The position numbers were made by a program, and so were the translations under genes. This document shows, piece by piece, positions 1-8,945 of a DNA stretch of 64,000 nucleotides. The notes under the pieces are model-generated. The model was not told the DNA's origin. It did no database searches and saw only the letters and a list, made by a program, of their open reading frames with translations. The DNA is from Accumulibacter sp. (GTDB lineage: Bacteria; Pseudomonadota; Gammaproteobacteria; Burkholderiales; Rhodocyclaceae), in contig NZ_JAMTDQ010000078.1 of assembly GCF_023806635.1 (NCBI RefSeq), positions 1-64,000 of the forward strand. Direction: 5' to 3'. The number at the start of each line of letters is the position of its first letter. Within the stretch, counting starts at the first letter, position 1.

Positions 1-1008
1 CCGACAGGTCGCGCAGCGACTCGGGCGTGCCGCCCAGCCGCTCGACGAGCTGGCGACTGAGCGCCAGGCTTTCGCGGTACACCGCCTCGGCCTGCGTCCA
101 GTCGCCCTGCGCCTGTGCGACGCGGCCGAGATTGTTGAGCGACACCGACAGGTCGCGCAGCGACTCCGGCGTGCCGCCCAGCCGCTCGACGAGCTGGCGA
201 CTGAGCGCCAGGCTTTCGCGGTACACCGCCTCGGCCTGCGTCCAGTCGCCCTGCGCCTGTGCGACGCGGCCGAGATTGTTGAGCGACACCGACAGGTCGC
301 GCAGCGACTCCGGCGTGCCGCCCAATCGCTCGACGAGCTGGCGACTGAGCGCCAGGCTTTCGCGGTACACCGCCTCGGCCTGCGTCCAGTCGCCCTGCGC
401 CTGTGCGACGCGGCCGAGGTTGTCGAGCGACACCGACAGGTCGCGCAGCGACTCCGGCGTGCCGCCCAGCCGCTCGACGAGCTGGCGTCTGAGCGCCAGG
501 CTTTCGCGGTACACCGCCTCGGCCTGCGTCCAGTCGCCCTGCGCCTCTGCGACGCGGCCGAGGTTGTCGAGCGACACCGACAGGTCGCGCAGCGACTCGG
601 GCGTGCCGCCCAGCCGCTCGACGAGCTGGCGACTGAGCGCCAGGCTTTCGCGGTACACCGCCTCGGCCTGCGTCCAGTCGCCCTGCGCCTGTGCGACGCG
701 GCCGAGGTTGTCGAGCGACACCGACAGGTCGCGCAGCGACTCGGGCGTGCCGCCCAGCCGCTCGACGAGCTGGCGACTGAGCGCCAGGCTTTCGCGGTAC
801 ACCGCCTCGGCCTGCGTCCAGTCGCCCTGCGCCTCTGCGACGCGACCGAGGTTGTTGAGCGACACCGACAGGTCGCGCAGCGACTCCGGCGCGCCGCCCA
901 GCCGCTCGACGAGCTGGCGACTGAGCGCCAGGCTTTCGCGGTACACCGCCTCGGCCTGCGTCCAGTCGCCCTGCGCCTCTGCGACGCGACCGAGGTTGTC
1001 GAGCGACA
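1..1008 (-). repeat. Seven near-identical 144-bp tandem units encoding TPRs
   Basis: Unit starts recur at 1, 145, 289, 433, 577, 721 and 865, with a partial unit beginning at 1009. Each unit is 144 bp (48 codons), so any unit gain or loss keeps the frame. Units differ at only a few positions, for example Asn/Asp before the LGRVA motif, Gln/Glu after it, and one Ser/Thr-type change around 487. Identity this high points to recent expansion or gene conversion. The array continues beyond the left edge. Confidence 0.95.
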
Positions 1009-1777
1009 CCGACAGGTCGCGGTCGCTCGAACCATCGGGTTTCGCCTGGGCACGGCGCCTGGCCAGCGCCAGTGCGCCGCGGGCAACATGCTCGGCGTCG
1101 CCGGGCCGTCCGGCGGCGAGCAGTTCCTGGCTGGCTGTCCAGGCAGTCGGCAGGAAGGCCTGCTCGGCTGCCGATGCGGTCGCCATCCGTTGCCATTCGG
1201 CAAATGCCGGCAGCGAAACGTCCGCTGCCAGCGGCGTTGCCAACGGCTCCACGCCAACCGCTACGGGCGTCGGCACGGCGTCGGGCAGCCAGCGCAGCTC
1301 CTCGCTGAGGTCCCGCTTGTGCCAGATGTCCGGGGCCATGGCGCGCGTCTCGGCACGGAAACGCGCCGGCAGGACCAGCACCAGCGGCCGCTTCAGGTCG
1401 CGCTCGAGGAGGAAGCGGCGTTCGTTGAGGCGCGCGAGGAACAGCGTGCGGGCGCGGTTCCACTGCGCGTCACCGGGATGGCGCTGCATCGCGTACCACA
1501 CACCGCCCGGCTGCGCCGACAGTTCGGCAAGATGGCCGACCAGCACGTCGACCGCCGCCTCCGGGTCCCGCACGAAGCTGTCTTTCGCTTCCTGCCGATG
1601 CAGCGCCCGGCCCTGCATCGCCAGCCGCTGATCCAGCCAGTCGGCGAGTTGCAGCGAGGGGCCGACGTCGGCGAACACGAAGACCAGCGAGAAGCCATCG
1701 TGCTGCCACTCCAGGTGACGCAGCAGACTGACGGCAACGCGTTCGGTCGGCGCGTCAAGCGCCAGTGCGGGCGACAT
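1..1777 (-). CDS. Tetratricopeptide-repeat protein, C-terminus beyond window edge
   Basis: Reading the minus strand from the ATG at 1777 gives an open frame to the left edge, so at least 592 residues are present and the end is missing. The first 250 or so residues form a non-repetitive domain (starts MSPALALDAPTERVAVSLL; later a run of basic and aliphatic residues ending in APDIWHKRDL) that I cannot assign, although its layout resembles the degenerate NTPase-like heads of other ATPase-linked TPR proteins. From about residue 256 it consists of 48-residue units with a TPR-like helical pattern (LNNLGRVAQAQGDW, then AVYRESLALSRQLVERL). TPRs scaffold protein contacts. The start codon lies 23 nt inside the upstream ATPase gene, so the two are translationally coupled and probably work together. 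Function unknown; an NLR-like sensor or scaffold is possible but unproven. Confidence 0.8.
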   Translation of the reverse strand, partial: MSPALALDAPTERVAVSLLRHLEWQHDGFSLVFVFADVGPSLQLADWLDQRLAMQGRALHRQEAKDSFVRDPEAAVDVLVGHLAELSAQPGGVWYAMQRHPGDAQWNRARTLFLARLNERRFLLERDLKRPLVLVLPARFRAETRAMAPDIWHKRDLSEELRWLPDAVPTPVAVGVEPLATPLAADVSLPAFAEWQRMATASAAEQAFLPTAWTASQELLAAGRPGDAEHVARGALALARRRAQAKPDGSSDRDLSVSLDNLGRVAEAQGDWTQAEAVYRESLALSRQLVERLGGAPESLRDLSVSLNNLGRVAEAQGDWTQAEAVYRESLALSRQLVERLGGTPESLRDLSVSLDNLGRVAQAQGDWTQAEAVYRESLALSRQLVERLGGTPESLRDLSVSLDNLGRVAEAQGDWTQAEAVYRESLALRRQLVERLGGTPESLRDLSVSLDNLGRVAQAQGDWTQAEAVYRESLALSRQLVERLGGTPESLRDLSVSLNNLGRVAQAQGDWTQAEAVYRESLALSRQLVERLGGTPESLRDLSVSLNNLGRVAQAQGDWTQAEAVYRESLALSRQLVERLGGTPESLRDLS

Positions 1778-3068
1778 GGGCGTCGACCAGCTCGCGCAAC
1801 AGCGGATGCACGTCGTACCAGTCACTGCCATTGCGGTAGTTGAGCACCAGGCGGTTGTCGAGGAAGTGCGCCAGTGTCGGCAACTCGCTGTCCTTCTCGA
1901 GACAGGTGTCGTGGGTCCTGGCGATGCGCTGCAACCAGAGCAGGTGCTCGCCCGGGATCGGCAGCATCTCGCTGCGCGCCGCATTCTCGGCCGCCTTGAC
2001 GGCACTGGGCGACAGCGGCAGTTGCGACTCGTCGCGGACCGCCGGTAGACAGAGCCGGATCAGGCGGAAGAATTCGCGCAGGTCACCGCCGGAGCTGATC
2101 GCCAACTGGTCGAGAGCCGTCTGCTGGAACAGCCGTGACCAGTCGGGATGGCGCTTTGCGACGACGGTGCGCAGCACGGCCAGCCCGTCGGGATCGGGTT
2201 CGCGGCTGCGGTCCCTGAAGACGTGCGTGCTGACCAGCCGGCGCGGCACCGCACCGCCCATCAGAGCGCCGGCGCCGGGGCCGAGTACCGACAGGTATGG
2301 TGGAATCGTATAGACGATGTGCAGCAAGGGCACGCGCAAGAGTTCGGCGTGGCCGAAGAAGAGATTGCGGACGCTCTCGTAGACGGCCATGGCCTCGCTG
2401 CCGACACCGCGAATCCGCTCGACCGAATCGATCAGCAGGACCACCTTGCGCGCCGGGTCAGACTCTCTCTCGCGAACGAAAAGCACCGCCTCGGCAAGGA
2501 AATCGTGCGCCTCGCGCGCCAGTTGCGCCACATGACCGCGAGCTGCTTCCTGCACGCGCTGCTTGAAATCCGGATCGCTCTTCAGGGCTGCCTTGATGTC
2601 CACCCCCGGCAATCGGGCGGCGAATTCCCTGATCTCGACTTTGCTCTGCATGAACTGACGGAAGCGGTCCCAGTAGCTGCGATTCCCCGGCGACGCACCG
2701 TACACCGCCTGCACCCTCTCCGACATCGCGCCTGCCACCGAAACCAGGAAATCGCTGATCTCGACCTCCTTGGTGAGCAACAGGAACTCCGACAGGTCGG
2801 CGTAGAAGACCACCGTGCCGCCATCCTCGAGGCGCTTCTTGAGGCGCTTGAGCTCGGTGCTCTTGCCGGTACCGCGCTGGCCGGTAAACAGGCACACGCC
2901 ACCGCCATCCTGCCATTCGATCTCGGTGGCGATCTCCTCGACCGCATCGCTGAAGCCCTGGCAGTTGACCTGCGCCACATAGACCGGATCACCGGGCTCG
3001 AGCACACGATCGGCCAGTGCGTTGTACAGCGTCTTGAGTTGTTCGCGGGCTTCGGCGCTAAGGGCCAT
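1755..3068 (-). CDS. P-loop ATPase, partner of the TPR protein
   Basis: A 437-residue soluble protein. It has a Walker A motif GQRGTGKS at residues 63-70 and a Walker B-like strand VVLLID ending at Asp214, so it should bind and hydrolyse ATP. The N-terminal stretch (residues 1-50) resembles the lead-in of AAA/STAND ATPases that precede TPR or CHAT effectors; the C-terminal third is helical, with a possible winged-helix region (HFLDNRLVLNYRNGSDWYDVHPLLREL). The start is the first ATG, with GGAG nine bases upstream. A good sigma70-type promoter sits about 110 bp upstream, and the stop overlaps the next gene. The specific role is unknown; a regulatory NTPase switch controlling the TPR protein is the simplest inference. 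Confidence 0.75.
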   Translation of the reverse strand: MALSAEAREQLKTLYNALADRVLEPGDPVYVAQVNCQGFSDAVEEIATEIEWQDGGGVCLFTGQRGTGKSTELKRLKKRLEDGGTVVFYADLSEFLLLTKEVEISDFLVSVAGAMSERVQAVYGASPGNRSYWDRFRQFMQSKVEIREFAARLPGVDIKAALKSDPDFKQRVQEAARGHVAQLAREAHDFLAEAVLFVRERESDPARKVVLLIDSVERIRGVGSEAMAVYESVRNLFFGHAELLRVPLLHIVYTIPPYLSVLGPGAGALMGGAVPRRLVSTHVFRDRSREPDPDGLAVLRTVVAKRHPDWSRLFQQTALDQLAISSGGDLREFFRLIRLCLPAVRDESQLPLSPSAVKAAENAARSEMLPIPGEHLLWLQRIARTHDTCLEKDSELPTLAHFLDNRLVLNYRNGSDWYDVHPLLRELVDAHVARTGA

Positions 3069-3180
3069 CGATCAGTCTCCGTGCAGCCCTGCAGCCTGAG
3101 CCATCGACCGAGGAGTGCCCTGGGCAAACGCAAGGCACGGGAATTTCGGCAAGGATAGGAAATTCAACCGCCATGGCGCG

Positions 3181-3210
3181 AGTATCTTCGCTCCACCCGC
3201 CGCTCGTCAA
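3181..3210 (-). promoter_or_regulatory. Sigma70-type promoter for the ATPase/TPR pair
   Basis: On the minus strand TTGACG (3210-3205) and GATACT (3186-3181) are separated by 18 bp, close to the sigma70 consensus. Transcription would start near 3174, leaving a leader of roughly 105 nt. The rest of the 3069-3397 gap holds only this promoter and the hairpin behind pstB1. Confidence 0.5.
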
Positions 3211-3360
3211 TCCTGGATTTCCGCCTTGTTCCCCGGCGCCCGCGGAATCTCGCCATCCTCCCCGTGCCTGAGGGCGTTCAGAGGCGTCATTCCCGGACAC
3301 CGCCATCGACACGATGCCCGCTCACGCACGATGGCCGGCGCGATTCTCCCGCAACGACGG

Positions 3361-3388
3361 CGCGCCCGCGTCCCGCGACGCGGGCGCG
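3361..3388 (-). terminator. GC-rich hairpin behind pstB1
   Basis: A perfect 12-bp stem (3361-3372 with 3377-3388) around a CCGC loop lies 10 bp past the pstB1 stop. There is no T-tract, so it may be a transcript-stabilising hairpin or a Rho-assisted end rather than a canonical terminator. Confidence 0.4.
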
Positions 3389-3397
3389 CGACGCCGC

Positions 3398-4204
3398 TCA
3401 GCCGTAGCGCCCCTCGATGTAGTCGGCCGTCTCCGGATGCACCGGGGTGACGAACATCTCCTCGGTGCGCCCGTGCTCGACGACCCGGCCCATCAGCATG
3501 AAGACGCACTCCTCGCTGGCGCGCCGCGCCTGCGCCATGTTGTGGGTGACGATCAGGATGGTGTACTGTCCGCGCAGTTCCCAGAGCAGTTCCTCGACCG
3601 CTTCGGTTCCCTTGGGGTCGAGCGCCGAGCAGGGTTCGTCCATCAGCAGGACCTTCGGCTTGACCGGCAGCAGGCGGGCGATGCACAGCTTCTGCTGCTC
3701 CTCGAGCGACAGTTCGGTCGCCTTGCGCTTCAGGCGGTCCTTCACCTGATCCCAGAGGAGAACCTGCCGCAACGATTGCTCGACGATCTCGTCCGGCGTT
3801 CCCTGCGCCACCTCGCCACCGCCCTTGGCGTGCAGCCGGTGGCTGAAGAGGATGTTGTCACGGATCGAGATCGGCAATGGGTTCGGACGCTGGAAGACCA
3901 TCCCGACCTGCTTGCGTACCTGCACCAGTTCGACCTGCGGATCGTAGATGTTCTCGTTCATGACGTGAATGCTGCCCTCGATGCGCACGTAACCGAGGCG
4001 CTCGTTGATGCGGTTGACACTGCGCAGGAACGTGCTCTTGCCGCAGCCCGAAGGGCCGATCATCGAGGTGATCAGTCCTTCCCGGATGCGCAGATCGACG
4101 TCGTAGAGCGCCTGGAAGGTACCGTACCAGAGATTGAGCTTCTCGCTGGCGATGGCATGGCGGGGAATCGGCTGCATCAGTGCAGCGGTCTGTTCGTTGT
4201 TCAT
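3398..4204 (-). CDS. pstB: Phosphate ABC transporter ATPase 1 with degenerate signature motif
   Basis: A 268-residue cytoplasmic ATPase that powers phosphate import through PstCA. Walker A GPSGCGKST (50-58), Q-loop Gln105 in VFQRPNP, Walker B LLMDE (Glu190), D-loop SALD and H-loop His221 in VTHNM are all intact. The ABC signature is not: PstB proteins have LSGGQQQRL, but here residues 165-172 read LSLEEQQK, so both glycines are gone. A PstB homodimer made of this chain would have two defective sites. It is the last gene of the operon, 67 bp after a second pstB with the opposite set of defects. I infer that the two form an obligate heterodimer. Length and overall alignment leave no doubt about the PstB family. 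Confidence 0.93.
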   Translation of the reverse strand: MNNEQTAALMQPIPRHAIASEKLNLWYGTFQALYDVDLRIREGLITSMIGPSGCGKSTFLRSVNRINERLGYVRIEGSIHVMNENIYDPQVELVQVRKQVGMVFQRPNPLPISIRDNILFSHRLHAKGGGEVAQGTPDEIVEQSLRQVLLWDQVKDRLKRKATELSLEEQQKLCIARLLPVKPKVLLMDEPCSALDPKGTEAVEELLWELRGQYTILIVTHNMAQARRASEECVFMLMGRVVEHGRTEEMFVTPVHPETADYIEGRYG

Positions 4205-4271
4205 CTTGCGTGGGTTCCGTGTCCTTGGTGGGCTGGCGCCGGCGTCGCGGCGGCGTGCCGGCGCCAGCTGG

Positions 4272-5087
4272 CTAGCCGAAGCGGCCTTCGACGTAATCGC
4301 GCGTTCGCTGGTCCTTCACCTCGCCGGTGAACAGGTCTTCGGTGACGCCGATCTCGACGCACTCGCCGCCGAGAAAGAAGGCCGTGCGGTCGGCGAGACG
4401 CCGCGCCTGCTGTACGAGGTTCGTGACGAGGATGATCGTCACTTCCTGGCGCAGTTCCTTCAGCACGTCCTCGATGCGCATCGTCGTCACCGGGTCGACA
4501 GCGATCGAGAACTCGTCGAGCATCAGCAGATCAGGCTCCTGCGACAGCGCGCGGGCGATCGTCAGGCGCTGCTGCTGGCCGCCGGAGAGCAGGCTGCCGA
4601 GCGCGTTCAGACGGTCCTTGACTTCGTCCCAGAGCGCGGCGCGGGTCAGGCAGCGCTGGACGATGACGTCGAGTTCGGCCTTTTCGTTGATCCCGCGCAG
4701 GCGTGGCGACAACGCGACGTTGTCGTACACCGTCATCGGCAGGCCGACCGGCAGCGGGAAGACGACGCCGATGCGGCTGCGCAGCGCATAGACGTTGTTT
4801 AGGTGGCGAGTGTCGCGGCCGGCGAAATGGATCTCGCCCTCCACCCGCATGCCGCTGGTGAACACATCCATGCGGTTGATCGCCTTGAGGAACGAGGTCT
4901 TGCCGGCGTTCGCCGGGCCGATGATGCCGAAGATCTCGTGCTCGCGAATCGACAGGCTGACGTCGCGCAGCGCCACATCGCTACCGTAGCGGATCGTCAG
5001 GTTGCGCACCTCGAGCTTGTTCGGGACGGCGGCGACCGCCTGCTGGCTGGCGTCTGTGGTCGCCGCCCGGGTTGCGAGCTCTACCAT
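4272..5087 (-). CDS. pstB: Phosphate ABC transporter ATPase 2 with degenerate Q- and H-loops
   Basis: A 271-residue PstB paralogue. It keeps Walker A GPANAGKTS (57-65) and a perfect signature LSGGQQQRL (167-175). The Q-loop Gln is replaced by Pro111 (VVFPLP), the DEPTSALDP segment reads DEFSIAVDP, and the H-loop His is replaced by Asn223 (VTNLVQQA). The last two are the catalytic switch positions. Its intact signature would complete the catalytic site of the PstB1 Walker face, while its own Walker face would meet the broken PstB1 signature. The start is the ATG at 5087, which overlaps the pstA stop by 7 nt behind a purine-rich GGGGGAAGAAG. A longer upstream reading to 5429 is rejected because it overlaps pstA. 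Confidence 0.92.
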   Translation of the reverse strand: MVELATRAATTDASQQAVAAVPNKLEVRNLTIRYGSDVALRDVSLSIREHEIFGIIGPANAGKTSFLKAINRMDVFTSGMRVEGEIHFAGRDTRHLNNVYALRSRIGVVFPLPVGLPMTVYDNVALSPRLRGINEKAELDVIVQRCLTRAALWDEVKDRLNALGSLLSGGQQQRLTIARALSQEPDLLMLDEFSIAVDPVTTMRIEDVLKELRQEVTIILVTNLVQQARRLADRTAFFLGGECVEIGVTEDLFTGEVKDQRTRDYVEGRFG

Positions 5088-5971
5088 TTCTTCTTCCCCC
5101 TGAGCCACATGCGGAAGGCGATCGAGACGCTGTTCATGGTCAGCACGAGACCGATCAGAACCAGCGCGACGCCGAAGGGAACGTGCTCCTCGATGCCCGG
5201 TACCTGCGTCGCGGTGACGAAGAGGTGCAGCGACAGGGCCATCGTCTGGTCGAAGACGCTCTGCGGCAGGAACGGCGTGAAGAAGACGGCGCCGGTGAAC
5301 ATGATCGGCGCCGTCTCGCCGGCGGTGCGCGAGACTTCGAGAATGACGCCGGTGAGGATGCCGGTCAGAGAGTTCGGCAGGACGACGCGACGGATCGTCT
5401 GCCAGCGTGTCGCGCCCATGTTCCAGCACGCCTCGCGGAACGCCTGCGGCACCGCCTGCAGCGACTCGCGCGTGGCGACGATGACCACCGGCATGGTCAT
5501 CACCGCCAGCGTCAGGCTGGCGGCGAGGATGCTGGTGCCGAACTTGAAGAAGATGACGAAGGCGCCGAGCCCGAACAGTGCATGGACGATCGACGGCACG
5601 CCGGCGAGATTGATGATCGCCAGGTTGATGATGCGGGTGAACCAGTTGTCGCCGGCGTACTCGCTGAGATAGATCGCCGCGAAGATGCCGATCGGCACCG
5701 ACAGCAGCAGGGCGACGGTCACCAGCCAGACGGTGCCGAGCAGCGCCGGAAAGATTCCGCCAGTGCGCATGCCGTCGGTCGGCGCCGAGAACAGGAACTC
5801 CCAGGAAATCGCTCCGCCGCCCTTCGCCACCAGCGTGCCGAGGATCAGCAGCACCGGCGTGATCAGGAGCAGGGTCATGAGCCCGAAGAGCAGTCGATAG
5901 CGTCGCTGCACGCTCTCGTTGTGCCGGTTCAGGTCGCTCGCCTGAAACAGCGCGGGGTTGGCCGTGTTCAT
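5081..5971 (-). CDS. pstA: Phosphate ABC transporter permease PstA
   Basis: A 296-residue inner-membrane permease with about six hydrophobic helices. The cytoplasmic coupling loop is typical of the family: EACWNMGATRWQTIRRVVLP (about residues 181-200) has the EAA pattern that docks on PstB. It pairs with PstC to form the phosphate channel. pstA lies 5 bp behind pstC and overlaps pstB2. Length is normal and no defect is seen. Confidence 0.95.
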   Translation of the reverse strand: MNTANPALFQASDLNRHNESVQRRYRLLFGLMTLLLITPVLLILGTLVAKGGGAISWEFLFSAPTDGMRTGGIFPALLGTVWLVTVALLLSVPIGIFAAIYLSEYAGDNWFTRIINLAIINLAGVPSIVHALFGLGAFVIFFKFGTSILAASLTLAVMTMPVVIVATRESLQAVPQAFREACWNMGATRWQTIRRVVLPNSLTGILTGVILEVSRTAGETAPIMFTGAVFFTPFLPQSVFDQTMALSLHLFVTATQVPGIEEHVPFGVALVLIGLVLTMNSVSIAFRMWLRGKKKW

Positions 5972-5976
5972 TGTGC

Positions 5977-6927
5977 TTAACCTTTGCGGATGCCGCGCAC
6001 GATCAGATCGGCGCTGAGGTTGATGATGAAGGTGATGAGGAAGAGAAAGATGCCGATGGTGAACAGCACCTGGTAGTGCTCGCCGCCGACGACCGCTTCA
6101 CCGAGTTCGGCGGCGATCGTCGCGGTGAGTGCGCGCACAGAATCGAAGATGCTGCTGGGTATGTTGACCGCATGGCCGGTGGCCATCAGCACCGCCATCG
6201 TCTCGCCGAAGCCGCGGCCGACACCGAGCAGGACACCGCCGAGCAGGCCGTTCTTCGCCGCCGGCAGCACCACCTTGTAGATCACCTGCCAGCGCGTCGC
6301 GCCCATCGCCTCGGCGGCTTCGCGATAGCGGTCGGGAACGGCCTTCAGGGCGTCCTCGGCGATCGAGGTCATGATCGGTGCCGCCATCAGGCCGAGGATG
6401 ACGCCGGCGTTGAGCACGGAAAGGCCGACCGGCACGTCGAACCACTTGATGAGCAGCGGATTCATGATCACCAGGCCGATGAATCCCCAGACCACCGACG
6501 GGATCGCCGCCAGCAGCTCGACCAGCACCTTCAGCGCCTCGCGCGTCTTGCCAGTGGCAAACTCGGCGATGTAGATCGCGGCGCCAAGCGAGAATGGCAC
6601 CGCGACCAGCATCGCCAGCCCGGTGACGCTCGCCGTTCCGGCGATCAGTGCCAGGATGCCGTGTTCCGGATCCTCGGCATCGCTCGGCGACCAGTAGGGC
6701 GTCAGGAAGAACTCGCGGAAATCCATCTTCTCGAAGACGAAGCCGATTCCCTCCCTGGTGACGAAGAAGAAGATGCCGAGAACGAAGAGGATGGCCGAAA
6801 TGCCGCAGACGAAGACGAGGCCGGCGATCAGCTTGTCGACGTACCAGTCCGCGTTGCGGCGGTCGAAATTCCCGGCGACTGCTGCAGTGGTGGCGCGATT
6901 GCTCAGCGCCTGCGTACCGGTGTTCAT
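5977..6927 (-). CDS. pstC: Phosphate ABC transporter permease PstC
   Basis: A 316-residue permease with six predicted transmembrane helices and the EAA-type loop EAAEAMGATRWQVIYKVVLP. The ATG at 6927 was chosen because AGGAGG lies about 10 bases upstream and the codon directly follows the phoU stop; an ATG at 6948 would start inside phoU. PstC and PstA together form the membrane pore for phosphate delivered by PstS. Confidence 0.95.
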   Translation of the reverse strand: MNTGTQALSNRATTAAVAGNFDRRNADWYVDKLIAGLVFVCGISAILFVLGIFFFVTREGIGFVFEKMDFREFFLTPYWSPSDAEDPEHGILALIAGTASVTGLAMLVAVPFSLGAAIYIAEFATGKTREALKVLVELLAAIPSVVWGFIGLVIMNPLLIKWFDVPVGLSVLNAGVILGLMAAPIMTSIAEDALKAVPDRYREAAEAMGATRWQVIYKVVLPAAKNGLLGGVLLGVGRGFGETMAVLMATGHAVNIPSSIFDSVRALTATIAAELGEAVVGGEHYQVLFTIGIFLFLITFIINLSADLIVRGIRKG

Positions 6928-6928
6928 C

Positions 6929-7990
6929 TCAGCTGCCCTCCTCGCCACGCAGGACGCCCATCAGGTTGCTGACGCGCAGGGCGATCTCCCGGCCGAGCGC
7001 CCGCAGGTCGGGCGGCGCGCCAGCGGACCGGCCGACGTCCCAGTCGAGCGCCACCGTGTGGAAGGGAATCTGCTCGACGTAGGACTTGACCGCTCCCTGC
7101 AGGCTGACGATGATCTGGTAGGTGGCGAGTTCCTGGTGGTGTGCCGGCATCGCCTGCGGCTGGTGGCCGCCGAGATCGATCCCCAGCTCCTGCAGCAAGG
7201 CGATCGCCTGCGGATCGGCGACACCGGCAGTCCGGCCGCGGCTGTGGTACTCGCCAACTTCGGGGAAGTTCTTGCGCGCGATCGCCGCGGCAATCGGCCC
7301 GAACAGGCTGTTGTCCTCGTCGAGGAAGAGGATGCGGAAGAACTTCGGTCCCTTGGCCTGGCCGGTGACCGCGAAGACCGTGTCCTCACAGATGTTCTTC
7401 GCCTGGTCGGAAACCCGCTCGAGCGAGTTGAACACCGTCAGGTAGGCGAACAGGTCCTGGATGTTGAAGTGATCGCCCTCGCCGAGCAGGTCGCTGAACG
7501 CCATGTCAAAGGTCCGCTCGACCTGGTCGGCGATGACCATCGTCGCCTTCGCCTTCTCGGCGTTGCCTTCGAGGAAGGCATCGACGGCCTGCTTCAGCAT
7601 CTGCCGCGACTCGTTCGCCATCAGTTCGATCTCGCGCGCCATCAGCCCCTGCGGGCGACCGAGACGCACCGCCTCGCGGCAGATGGTGACGGCGTAGTCG
7701 CCGATCCGCTCGAGCGCGACGTTGGTGTGGACGACGGCCCCCATCAGGCGCAGGTGGCTGCCGGTCGGCAGGTGCACGCCGATGAACGCCATGCGCATGC
7801 GATCCAGCTCGTTGCTGACGGCATTGATCCGGTTGTCGGCCAGGATCGTGGCGTAGGCCAGCGGGTCGTCGTCGGCGAGCAGCGCGTGTACGGCGTCGGC
7901 GAGTGCCTTCTCGACGAGGCCGGCGAGCAGGGCCAGCTGTTTCTTGATCTGGGACAGGTCTCTTTCGAGACGTTCTTCGTAGTGACTCAT
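6929..7990 (-). CDS. phoU: PhoU fused to an inactive LMW-phosphatase-like domain
   Basis: A 353-residue protein, versus about 235 for ordinary PhoU. Residues 1-210 are two PhoU three-helix repeats, each with the metal-site ExxxD motif (E94-R-I-G-D98 and E191-R-V-S-D195). PhoU restrains PstSCAB and the PhoR kinase when phosphate is plentiful. Residues 216-320 match the low-molecular-weight phosphatase/arsenate reductase fold: strand FFRILFL, helix IAAAIARKNF, then ADPQAIALLQELGIDLGGH. The family P-loop C-x-G-N-x-C-R-S is replaced by DEDNSLFGP, so both the catalytic Cys and the Arg are absent. The tail probably senses or binds a ligand or protein rather than acting as an enzyme. Its position between pstS and pstC is unusual, since phoU is often last. 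Confidence 0.88.
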   Translation of the reverse strand: MSHYEERLERDLSQIKKQLALLAGLVEKALADAVHALLADDDPLAYATILADNRINAVSNELDRMRMAFIGVHLPTGSHLRLMGAVVHTNVALERIGDYAVTICREAVRLGRPQGLMAREIELMANESRQMLKQAVDAFLEGNAEKAKATMVIADQVERTFDMAFSDLLGEGDHFNIQDLFAYLTVFNSLERVSDQAKNICEDTVFAVTGQAKGPKFFRILFLDEDNSLFGPIAAAIARKNFPEVGEYHSRGRTAGVADPQAIALLQELGIDLGGHQPQAMPAHHQELATYQIIVSLQGAVKSYVEQIPFHTVALDWDVGRSAGAPPDLRALGREIALRVSNLMGVLRGEEGS

Positions 7991-8069
7991 CGCGGTCTTC
8001 TTCCTCAGGCGCGGGAACACGGGCGCCGGCGGTGCGCCGACAGCGTCGGCGCACCGCCGCCAACGGGAC

Positions 8070-8945
8070 TTACTTGCACTTCACCTTCTTGATCGGCGCG
8101 TAGCCTTCCTTCTCGATGATGCACTGGCCGGCGTCGCTCTTGATCCAGTCCATGTACTTCTTCACCTCGCCGGTCGGCGCGCCGTTGGTGTACATGAACA
8201 GCGGCCGGGCGATCGGATAGGTGCCGTCGAAGGCCGTCTGCTCGGTCGGCTTGACGCACGGCTTGCCGGCCTCCGGTGCGACGCAGAGCGCCTTCATGTG
8301 GTCGGTGACGTAGGCGAGACCGCTGTAGCCGATCGCGCAGGGCGTCTTCTCGACGAGGTCGGCGACGTCCTTGGAACCATGCAGGTCGAGCGTCCCCTGG
8401 CGGAACTTGCCCTTCTCGCCGAGCACCGCCTCCTTGAAGTAGGCGTAGGTGCCGGAGTTGTTCTGCCGGCTGACGACGACGATCTCGCCCTTGCAGCCGG
8501 GAATGGTGATGCCGAGGTCGGCCCACTTGGTGGCGCCGCCGTCACGACCGTAGATCTTCGCCAGGTCGGTGACGGTGATCGAATCCTTCGGGAAGTTCTT
8601 GTGCGCATAGATCGCCAGCGCGTCGTAACCGATGATGTGCTCGACCGGCTGCCGGCCCTTCGCCTGCGCAGCCTGGAGCTCCTTCGCCGACATCTTGCGG
8701 CTCGAGTTGGCGATGTCGACGGTACCGTTGATCATCGCCGCGATGCCGGTGCCCGAACCGCCACCGGAGACCGCCACCGCCACGTTCGGATTGATCTTGC
8801 CGTACTGTTCGGCGAGCGACTGCGCGGCGTTGACCAGCGTGTCGGAGCCCTTGTTCTGGATTTCGGTCCGGGCGGATGCGCCGGCGGCGGCCGTCACGCC
8901 AAGGGTCAGGACGGCAAGCTTGCACCACATCGAGCGAGAGTTCAT
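8070..8945 (-). CDS. pstS: Periplasmic phosphate-binding protein PstS
   Basis: A 291-residue precursor. A signal peptide spans residues 1-25 (basic start, hydrophobic core, cleavage near ASA-RTEI). The mature start has the PstS pattern NKGSDTL, and GGGSGTG and SRQNNSGTY are the classical phosphate-cradling loops. It captures phosphate in the periplasm for PstCA-PstB. It is the first gene of the pst operon, with GGAGAAAG just before the ATG. Several paired cysteines near the C-terminus (PCAIG, ALC, KPC, QC, KCK) are more than usual and may form disulfides. Confidence 0.95.
   Translation of the reverse strand: MNSRSMWCKLAVLTLGVTAAAGASARTEIQNKGSDTLVNAAQSLAEQYGKINPNVAVAVSGGGSGTGIAAMINGTVDIANSSRKMSAKELQAAQAKGRQPVEHIIGYDALAIYAHKNFPKDSITVTDLAKIYGRDGGATKWADLGITIPGCKGEIVVVSRQNNSGTYAYFKEAVLGEKGKFRQGTLDLHGSKDVADLVEKTPCAIGYSGLAYVTDHMKALCVAPEAGKPCVKPTEQTAFDGTYPIARPLFMYTNGAPTGEVKKYMDWIKSDAGQCIIEKEGYAPIKKVKCK

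Follow-up and report, generated by a model that had tools for sequence, protein, structure and literature searches.

How could a phosphate importer be driven by two PstB ATPases if neither of them carries a complete set of ABC motifs? The question is raised by a pst operon in the window, by which we mean the whole analysed stretch of 64,000 nucleotides from Accumulibacter sp. In an ABC dimer each ATP site is formed by the Walker, Q-loop and H-loop face of one chain together with the signature of the other chain, as described in the available passages of PMC7756269.

Two PstB-like ATPases and their operon

The operon comprises six genes on the minus strand in the order pstS-phoU*-pstC-pstA-pstB2-pstB1, where phoU* denotes a fusion gene. 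Coordinates of the genes and of the decisive motif sites are given in Table 1.

Table 1. Genes and motif sites of the pst operon in the window
Feature	Position	Strand	Basis
pstB1, ABC ATPase	3398..4204	minus	motif reading and TIGR00972 profile
PstB1 degenerate signature LSLEE (residues L165-E169) in place of LSGGQ	3698..3712	minus	codon reading
pstB2, ABC ATPase	4272..5087	minus	motif reading and TIGR00972 profile
PstB2 Asn223 codon at the H-loop His site, VTN(223)L	4419..4421	minus	codon reading
PstB2 intact signature LSGGQ (residues 167-171)	4575..4589	minus	motif reading
PstB2 Pro111 codon at the Q-loop Gln site, GVVFP(111)LP	4755..4757	minus	codon reading
pstA permease	5081..5971	minus	TIGR00974, 263.2 bits, above cut-off; overlaps the start of pstB2
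pstC permease	5977..6948	minus	TIGR02138, 279.5 bits, above cut-off
PhoU fused to an ArsC/LMW-phosphatase-like domain	6929..8020	minus	PF01895 match
pstS phosphate-binding protein	8070..8945	minus	TIGR02136, 233.3 bits, above cut-off

PstB1 contains an intact Walker A motif (GPSGCGKST), Q-loop (GMVFQ(105)RP), Walker B motif (LLMDEP), SALDP segment and H-loop (VTH(221)N); what it has lost is the signature. PstB2 has the reverse pattern. Its signature is intact, Walker A reads GPANAGKTS and the Walker B Asp-Glu pair is present, followed by an altered segment (LMLDEF-SIAVDP, that is DEFSIAVDP), and the glutamine of the Q-loop and the histidine of the H-loop are lost. A full motif set is thus found within neither chain. 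The initial annotation had described the same intact and altered motifs for both proteins, and the translated open reading frames bear this out.

Both proteins score below the curated cut-off (343.2 bits) of TIGR00972, the NCBIfam equivalog family of PstB, with 317.9 bits for PstB1 and 278.9 bits for PstB2. Despite these scores it is the best-scoring family for either chain, and both genes adjoin pstA and pstC in a pst operon, the context that is expected of pstB. The best sequence match in the PDB is E. coli PstB for both (phmmer). In the phmmer alignments the LSGGQ of the PstB chain in entry 9k3x, the E. coli PstSCAB complex, faces LSLEE of PstB1, and the same chain carries Gln and His at the positions of Pro111 and Asn223 of PstB2. 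The predicted structure of PstB1 has a mean pLDDT of 85.9. The PstB2 model has a mean pLDDT of 64.6, a low confidence, and its top Foldseek match is 9k3x_C with an E-value of 2.8e-23. Fold and operon resemble those of E. coli PstSCAB (cryo-EM entries 9k3x and 9k3s). All motifs are intact in E. coli PstB, however, and likewise in the ordinary PstB of the window's own genome and of those relatives that were read, unlike in PstB1 and PstB2.

PstS, PstC and PstA exceed the cut-offs of phosphate families, and we infer that phosphate is the substrate. The PhoU fusion scores 129.9 bits against TIGR02135, just below the cut-off of 130.25, and only weakly against TIGR02689; its start is probably an ATG about 30 bases inside the open reading frame. 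Arsenate reductase structures match it with an E-value of 5e-4. In the C-terminal ArsC/LMW-phosphatase-like domain the residues LDEDNSLFG are aligned at the catalytic Cys-X5-Arg loop. With this replacement the domain resembles an inactive phosphatase, or else a domain that binds phosphate.

PstA carries REACWNMGATRWQ as its coupling-helix motif. REACWNMG is found in nearly all PstA relatives with at least 65% identity (Cys in 170 of 174, Trp in 173 of 174, duplicates included), and more distant PstA proteins differ. The motif may mark a co-adaptation of the permease to one of the two ATPases.

Downstream of pstB1 the window contains a gene on the minus strand (1755-3068) with weak matches to AAA/ATPase domains. 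No homologue of it was found in any of the 87 related loci that were searched (see below), so that it is improbable that this gene belongs to the operon. In the first kilobase of the window, at about 27-1035, a single open frame spans approximately seven near-identical repeats of about 48 residues; the repeat may belong to the DNA rather than to a protein.

Co-occurrence of the motif losses across genomes

The pair is not confined to the window. Among 25 genomes of the same genus 18 carry PstB1, the same 18 carry PstB2 and the remaining seven carry neither. The key motif residues are identical in every covered row of these 18 carriers; in G003, one of these carriers, a contig end truncates PstB2 so that no more than the last 83 residues are visible. 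In 16 genomes from other families of the order there was no match above 48% identity. To this we added a scan of one genome per species, in which EHEIFGII and GPANAGKT served as PstB2 patterns for selecting loci; there were 211 matches, and the best 80 were taken. Neither the Q-loop, nor the H-loop, nor the PstB1 signature played a part in this selection. These best 80 come from Accumulibacter, Thiodiazotropha, Sedimenticola, Chromatiaceae, Lysobacterales and other Gammaproteobacteria, and also from metagenome-assembled genomes (MAGs) labelled Gemmatimonadetes, Planctomycetota, Rhodothermales and Bacteriovoracaceae, where the labels are depositors' titles and may err. Together with seven loci from a class-wide sample they make up 87 loci, and in all of them a PstB1-type gene adjoins PstB2 (the one in L075 is truncated ahead of its signature).

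Samples at higher rank gave a similar picture. In the class sample 8 of 369 genomes, the window's own included, match at 75% identity or more; 31 further genomes match at 43-48%, and the two of these that were read are ordinary. In the phylum sample PstB1 is present at 68% identity or more in 23 of 398 genomes (again counting its own), with PstB2 beside it in all but G557, and 89 further genomes match at 48-53%, of which five were read and all are ordinary. The phylum of the Rhodothermales MAG contains the pair in 12 of 247 genomes, of which six represent a deeper branch; one more genome matched, the thirteenth, but with an ordinary PstB. With a deeper-branch PstB2 as the query 124 genomes of that phylum matched; the 29 that were read are ordinary beyond the same six. 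The corresponding numbers are 25 of 246 genomes for the phylum of the Planctomycetota MAG (31 matches, two ordinary and four unread), 4 of 64 for that of the Gemmatimonadetes MAG and 8 of 173 for that of the Bacteriovoracaceae MAG. In these other phyla equivalent motif losses are retained at 45-60% identity. The pair thus occurs in Accumulibacter, in other Proteobacteria and in genomes from four other phyla.

Plasmid records gave 122 and 136 matches and phage records 25, all below 60% identity, and the four that were read are ordinary; the pair was confirmed in none of the scanned viral contigs. Since members of the deeper branch are only 45-50% identical, the plasmid and phage scans exclude the window's branch from such records, but not the deeper branch.

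The initial annotation had also suggested that the arrangement could matter for a phosphate-hoarding organism. This does not agree with its absence from 7 of the 25 Accumulibacter genomes and its presence in MAGs labelled Planctomycetota, Bdellovibrionota, Gemmatimonadota and Rhodothermota. We rejected a restriction to phosphate hoarders on the basis of this distribution.

For a census of the motifs we compiled 444 PstB-like coding sequences from 257 loci, of which 351 are distinct by their last 150 residues. Among the distinct sequences 144 have lost both Gln and His and kept the signature, and 145 have kept Gln and His and lost the signature. All motifs are kept in 56, all are lost in one (L184), and five are cut. 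No complete sequence among the 444 has lost the Gln alone, the His alone, or one of them along with the signature. Where a locus contains more than one PstB (189 loci, duplicates included), 182 show a full PstB2-type gene followed by a full PstB1-type gene and five a pair with one member cut. The other two are ordinary tandems from a single genome (G991). In none of the 189 does a PstB2-type gene adjoin an ordinary PstB instead of PstB1. A full PstB2-type gene is directly followed by a PstB1-type gene, except for copies truncated at contig ends. Later searches in two phyla yielded 12 loci, 9 of them from new genomes, and all 12 agree with this pairing. The co-occurrence proposed in the initial annotation, of LSLEE with the Q- and H-loop changes in one operon, is what the loci that were read contain, and the independent occurrence that was to speak against it is limited to the exceptions described below. 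The census includes few matches at 43-58% identity, a range in which unpaired members of the deeper branch could be missed.

We then compared 142 distinct pairs, defined as adjacent members of both motif classes; the two signature glycines are part of the class definition. Since these pairs were picked for their adjacency, they alone cannot prove the pairing, which is proved by the count over the 189 loci. The PstB1 signature occurs as LSLEE, LSLEQ, LPLDQ, LQLEQ, LSAEQ, LSGEA, LLLEQ and others, and the nine new genomes add LQLEA, LQLEM and LSLEL. Within the 142 pairs its fourth position is always acidic (Glu in 139, Asp in 3) and its third is Leu in 139. The Q-loop site of PstB2 is Pro in 133 pairs or Ala in 9, and the H-loop site is Asn in every pair. 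The PstB2 signature begins with Leu (141) or Ile (1) and continues as SGGQ. Both chains retain the Lys of Walker A (apart from one gap per chain in this column) and the Asp-Glu of Walker B. That the same motifs are lost via different residues argues against a frozen accident. Chance or sequencing error was rejected as well, because the key residues are fixed in the 18 carriers of the genus and equivalent losses are found in other phyla.

Three sequences depart from the pattern. In L180 (G557) PstB1 lies beside a PstB2 fragment of only 15 residues; the contig contains no Ns and the MAG is rated 6% contaminated in 730 contigs, so we keep this locus as an exception. A lone PstB with the signature LSAGQ (L251) was counted among the 145, and the tree described below places it among ordinary PstB. 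The third, L184 (positions 2064-4697), combines a PhoU-ArsC-like fusion, a PstC-like permease and a doubly degenerate PstB-like protein that has lost the start of Walker A, the Q-loop Gln, the signature, the catalytic Glu (Asp instead) and the H-loop His. A separate full pstA or pstB2 was not found within the 5 kb examined. An apparently broken pstB1 (L077, genome G023) was dismissed, as the gene spans 303 Ns there.

Ancestry, selection and genomic context

A tree of 103 sequences unites all PstB2 in a single clade with a support of 100/99. Another branch, supported at 99/92, separates every PstB1, L184 and the deeper members included, from PstB2 together with ordinary PstB. This topology suggests that the asymmetry probably arose once and was then retained. 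The branch that bears on a sister relationship of PstB1 and PstB2, as would follow from one tandem duplication, has a support of 48/81.

Both genes are under purifying selection. Within Accumulibacter dN/dS is 0.114 for PstB2 and 0.072 for PstB1 (Nei-Gojobori, 16 genomes, 120 pairs each); for ordinary PstB we obtained 0.09-0.43 from four sequences (six pairs), a poor control because it spans distant copies. These values bear on the view that the pair as such has no role and that either gene, or both, is a duplicate in decay or a partner of the ordinary PstB. Broken or partial second pstB1-type copies do exist in two Accumulibacter genomes (G010:C1:4280128-4280923 and G019:C69:38132-38545), and many carriers also hold an ordinary PstB. 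Nevertheless, dN/dS of about 0.1, the invariant Asn, the strict pairing and gene order and the carriers that have no other PstB make this explanation highly improbable. Pseudogene decay as such was rejected by dN/dS together with the invariant H-loop Asn.

The search for further PstB genes covered 46 carrier genomes, namely 18 from the genus, 7 from the class sample and 21 from the 80 scanned loci. In 30 of them an ordinary PstB is present besides the pair, so that mixed dimers are possible there. The window's genome encodes one on another contig (381 bits), and G389 and G410, which seem to be the same genome, both have one. The other 16 contain no PstB above the family cut-off, and the pair provides the sole matches at an E-value of 1e-75. 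Among these 16 are G408 (CP059264, titled a complete chromosome) as well as G001 and G258, each rated 100% complete.

All six genes of the operon are present in 70 of the 87 loci, and one order is common to these 70. The PhoU fusion is matched up to residue 357 or further in 69 of these 70, and in L127 only up to residue 254. Deeper and intermediate loci, where long enough, have the order pstS-pstC-pstA-pstB2-pstB1-phoU, as in an ordinary pst-phoU operon. Here phoU follows pstB1 and appears unfused, with matches that stop near residue 220. The alternative form, in which phoU lies between pstS and pstC and is fused to the ArsC-like domain, is found mostly in Proteobacteria. In L249 (positions 35-7666) an ordinary pstS-pstC-pstA-pstB-phoU operon is directly followed by asymmetric pstB2-pstB1-phoU genes, for which the pstC and pstA matches are partial.

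Given this context the asymmetric Pst could chiefly be a sensor or signaling complex with slow turnover, in which a silent site would keep the transporter in a state that the PhoU-ArsC-like fusion reads, while bulk uptake takes place through another transporter. The position of phoU inside the operon would suit such a role, as would its fusion, in the mostly Proteobacterial form, to a domain without the catalytic Cys-X5-Arg, the additional ordinary PstB in 30 of the 46 carriers, and L184, a doubly degenerate relative in an operon of phoU fusion and pstC without a full pstA or pstB2. Nevertheless, 16 carriers have no other PstB above the cut-off, the operons of the deeper branch have an unfused-looking phoU after pstB1, and each pair that was read still has one consensus site. 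An ordinary Pst system is importer and sensor at once, which we count against a role chiefly in sensing. On balance we regard this explanation as unlikely.

A proposed heterodimer with one consensus ATP site

Because the losses in the two chains are complementary, either homodimer would have two flawed sites and no complete consensus site. In a heterodimer three flaws would come together in one site and leave the other as a consensus site. Two nucleotide-binding domains are thus present whose defects are placed such that one consensus and one non-consensus composite site would result, and the co-occurrence of the losses supports an interpretation as an asymmetric pair. In our view the best explanation, with a probability of roughly 0.8, is that PstB1 and PstB2 form an obligate heterodimer in which one ATP site is consensus and the other degenerate.

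Based on the motif patterns we propose the following arrangement. The operon would encode a type I phosphate importer with an obligate PstB1/PstB2 heterodimer. To site A, PstB1 would contribute its Walker, Q-loop and H-loop face and PstB2 its LSGGQ. Every consensus element would be present in this site, and ATP hydrolysis is expected here. Site B would consist of the PstB2 face, in which Walker A still has its Lys and Walker B its Asp-Glu but Gln and His are lost, and the LSLE(E/Q) signature of PstB1. This signature would put an acidic residue at the position of the second signature glycine, where it is expected to face the γ-phosphate. Site B should bind a nucleotide and hydrolyze it poorly or not at all. 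We infer that hydrolysis takes place at one site only, with ATP staying at the other, and that the cost per phosphate is lowered. It is possible, though we would stop short of calling it probable, that an old branch of Pst in several phyla runs on such a split ATP motor, with ATP consumed at one site and the other site permanently occupied or regulatory.

TAP, CFTR and TM287/288 are asymmetric ABC exporters with one consensus and one degenerate site. Most known degenerate ATP sites belong to exporters, where their purpose is still under debate. In the asymmetric exporters the nucleotide-binding and membrane domains are fused; the window's system, in contrast, is an importer that depends on a binding protein and whose ATPase subunits are separate chains. 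A further difference counts against our assignment of a degenerate site: the Walker B Glu is often, though not universally, lost in such sites of exporters, but is kept in PstB2 in 142 of 142 distinct pairs. In Pdr5, as described in the passages of PMC7756269 available to us, the defects are split in the same manner, with Tyr for the H-loop His in one nucleotide-binding domain and the signature LNVEQ in the other. LNVEQ has a Glu at the fourth place, as does LSLE(E/Q) of PstB1.

According to the same passages of PMC7756269, MRP1 with Asn for the H-loop His at its catalytic site retained wild-type-like transport. Asn223 alone therefore need not silence site B, and partial activity at a flawed site is a real rival. 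Both sites might hydrolyze ATP at unequal rates, with substitutions that tune site B rather than silence it. The Walker A Lys and Walker B Asp-Glu of PstB2, conserved in the distinct pairs wherever the columns are covered, would fit such a tuned site. However, the Q-loop, the H-loop and the acidic facing signature add up to three defects in one site, and we consider two active sites improbable.

Two ATPase chains as such are known from other importers. In E. coli DppD/DppF, as here, the two chains differ. In the available text of PMC12136057, however, both are considered catalytic (Glu179 and Glu187) and hydrolysis of two ATP is proposed, unlike in our reading of PstB1/PstB2. Enterococcus faecalis has two adjacent pstB genes, PstB1 and PstB2, in a pst-phoU operon, which are non-equivalent by deletion as reported in the accessible parts of PMC12096839. 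The same parts describe the four ATPase motifs in both of its chains, unlike in the window's pair, and state that an excess of PstB2 alone could replace PstB1, which should be impossible for the pair described here. Two tandem pairs that we read on contigs labelled Enterococcus and Listeria (L258 and L259) likewise have intact motifs, one of them with MSGGQ. According to the importance statement of PMC12096839, no published study had compared what tandem pstB paralogs each contribute; the paper also cites a tandem pair in the cyanobacterium Nostoc punctiforme. We found no description of a degenerate or asymmetric PstB in the open PMC literature, a scope outside which many subscription papers lie. 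PMC11131965 mentions Pst in Accumulibacter; an asymmetric pair is absent from the available passages of this paper and from those of PMC10246721.

If the reading as a split motor in an old branch of Pst is true, an importer has independently reached the design of Pdr5, TAP and CFTR. The transporter would then spend approximately one ATP per phosphate, or its silent site would report the phosphate status to PhoU. The asymmetry lies in two exchangeable chains. Relatives in which both sites are intact occur alongside, in some cases within one genome or, as in L249, in an adjacent operon, and this makes the asymmetry directly testable. Such genes are easily annotated as plain PstB, yet they would represent a distinct functional kind. 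The finding bears on phosphate uptake in Accumulibacter from wastewater and in animal symbionts such as Thiodiazotropha.
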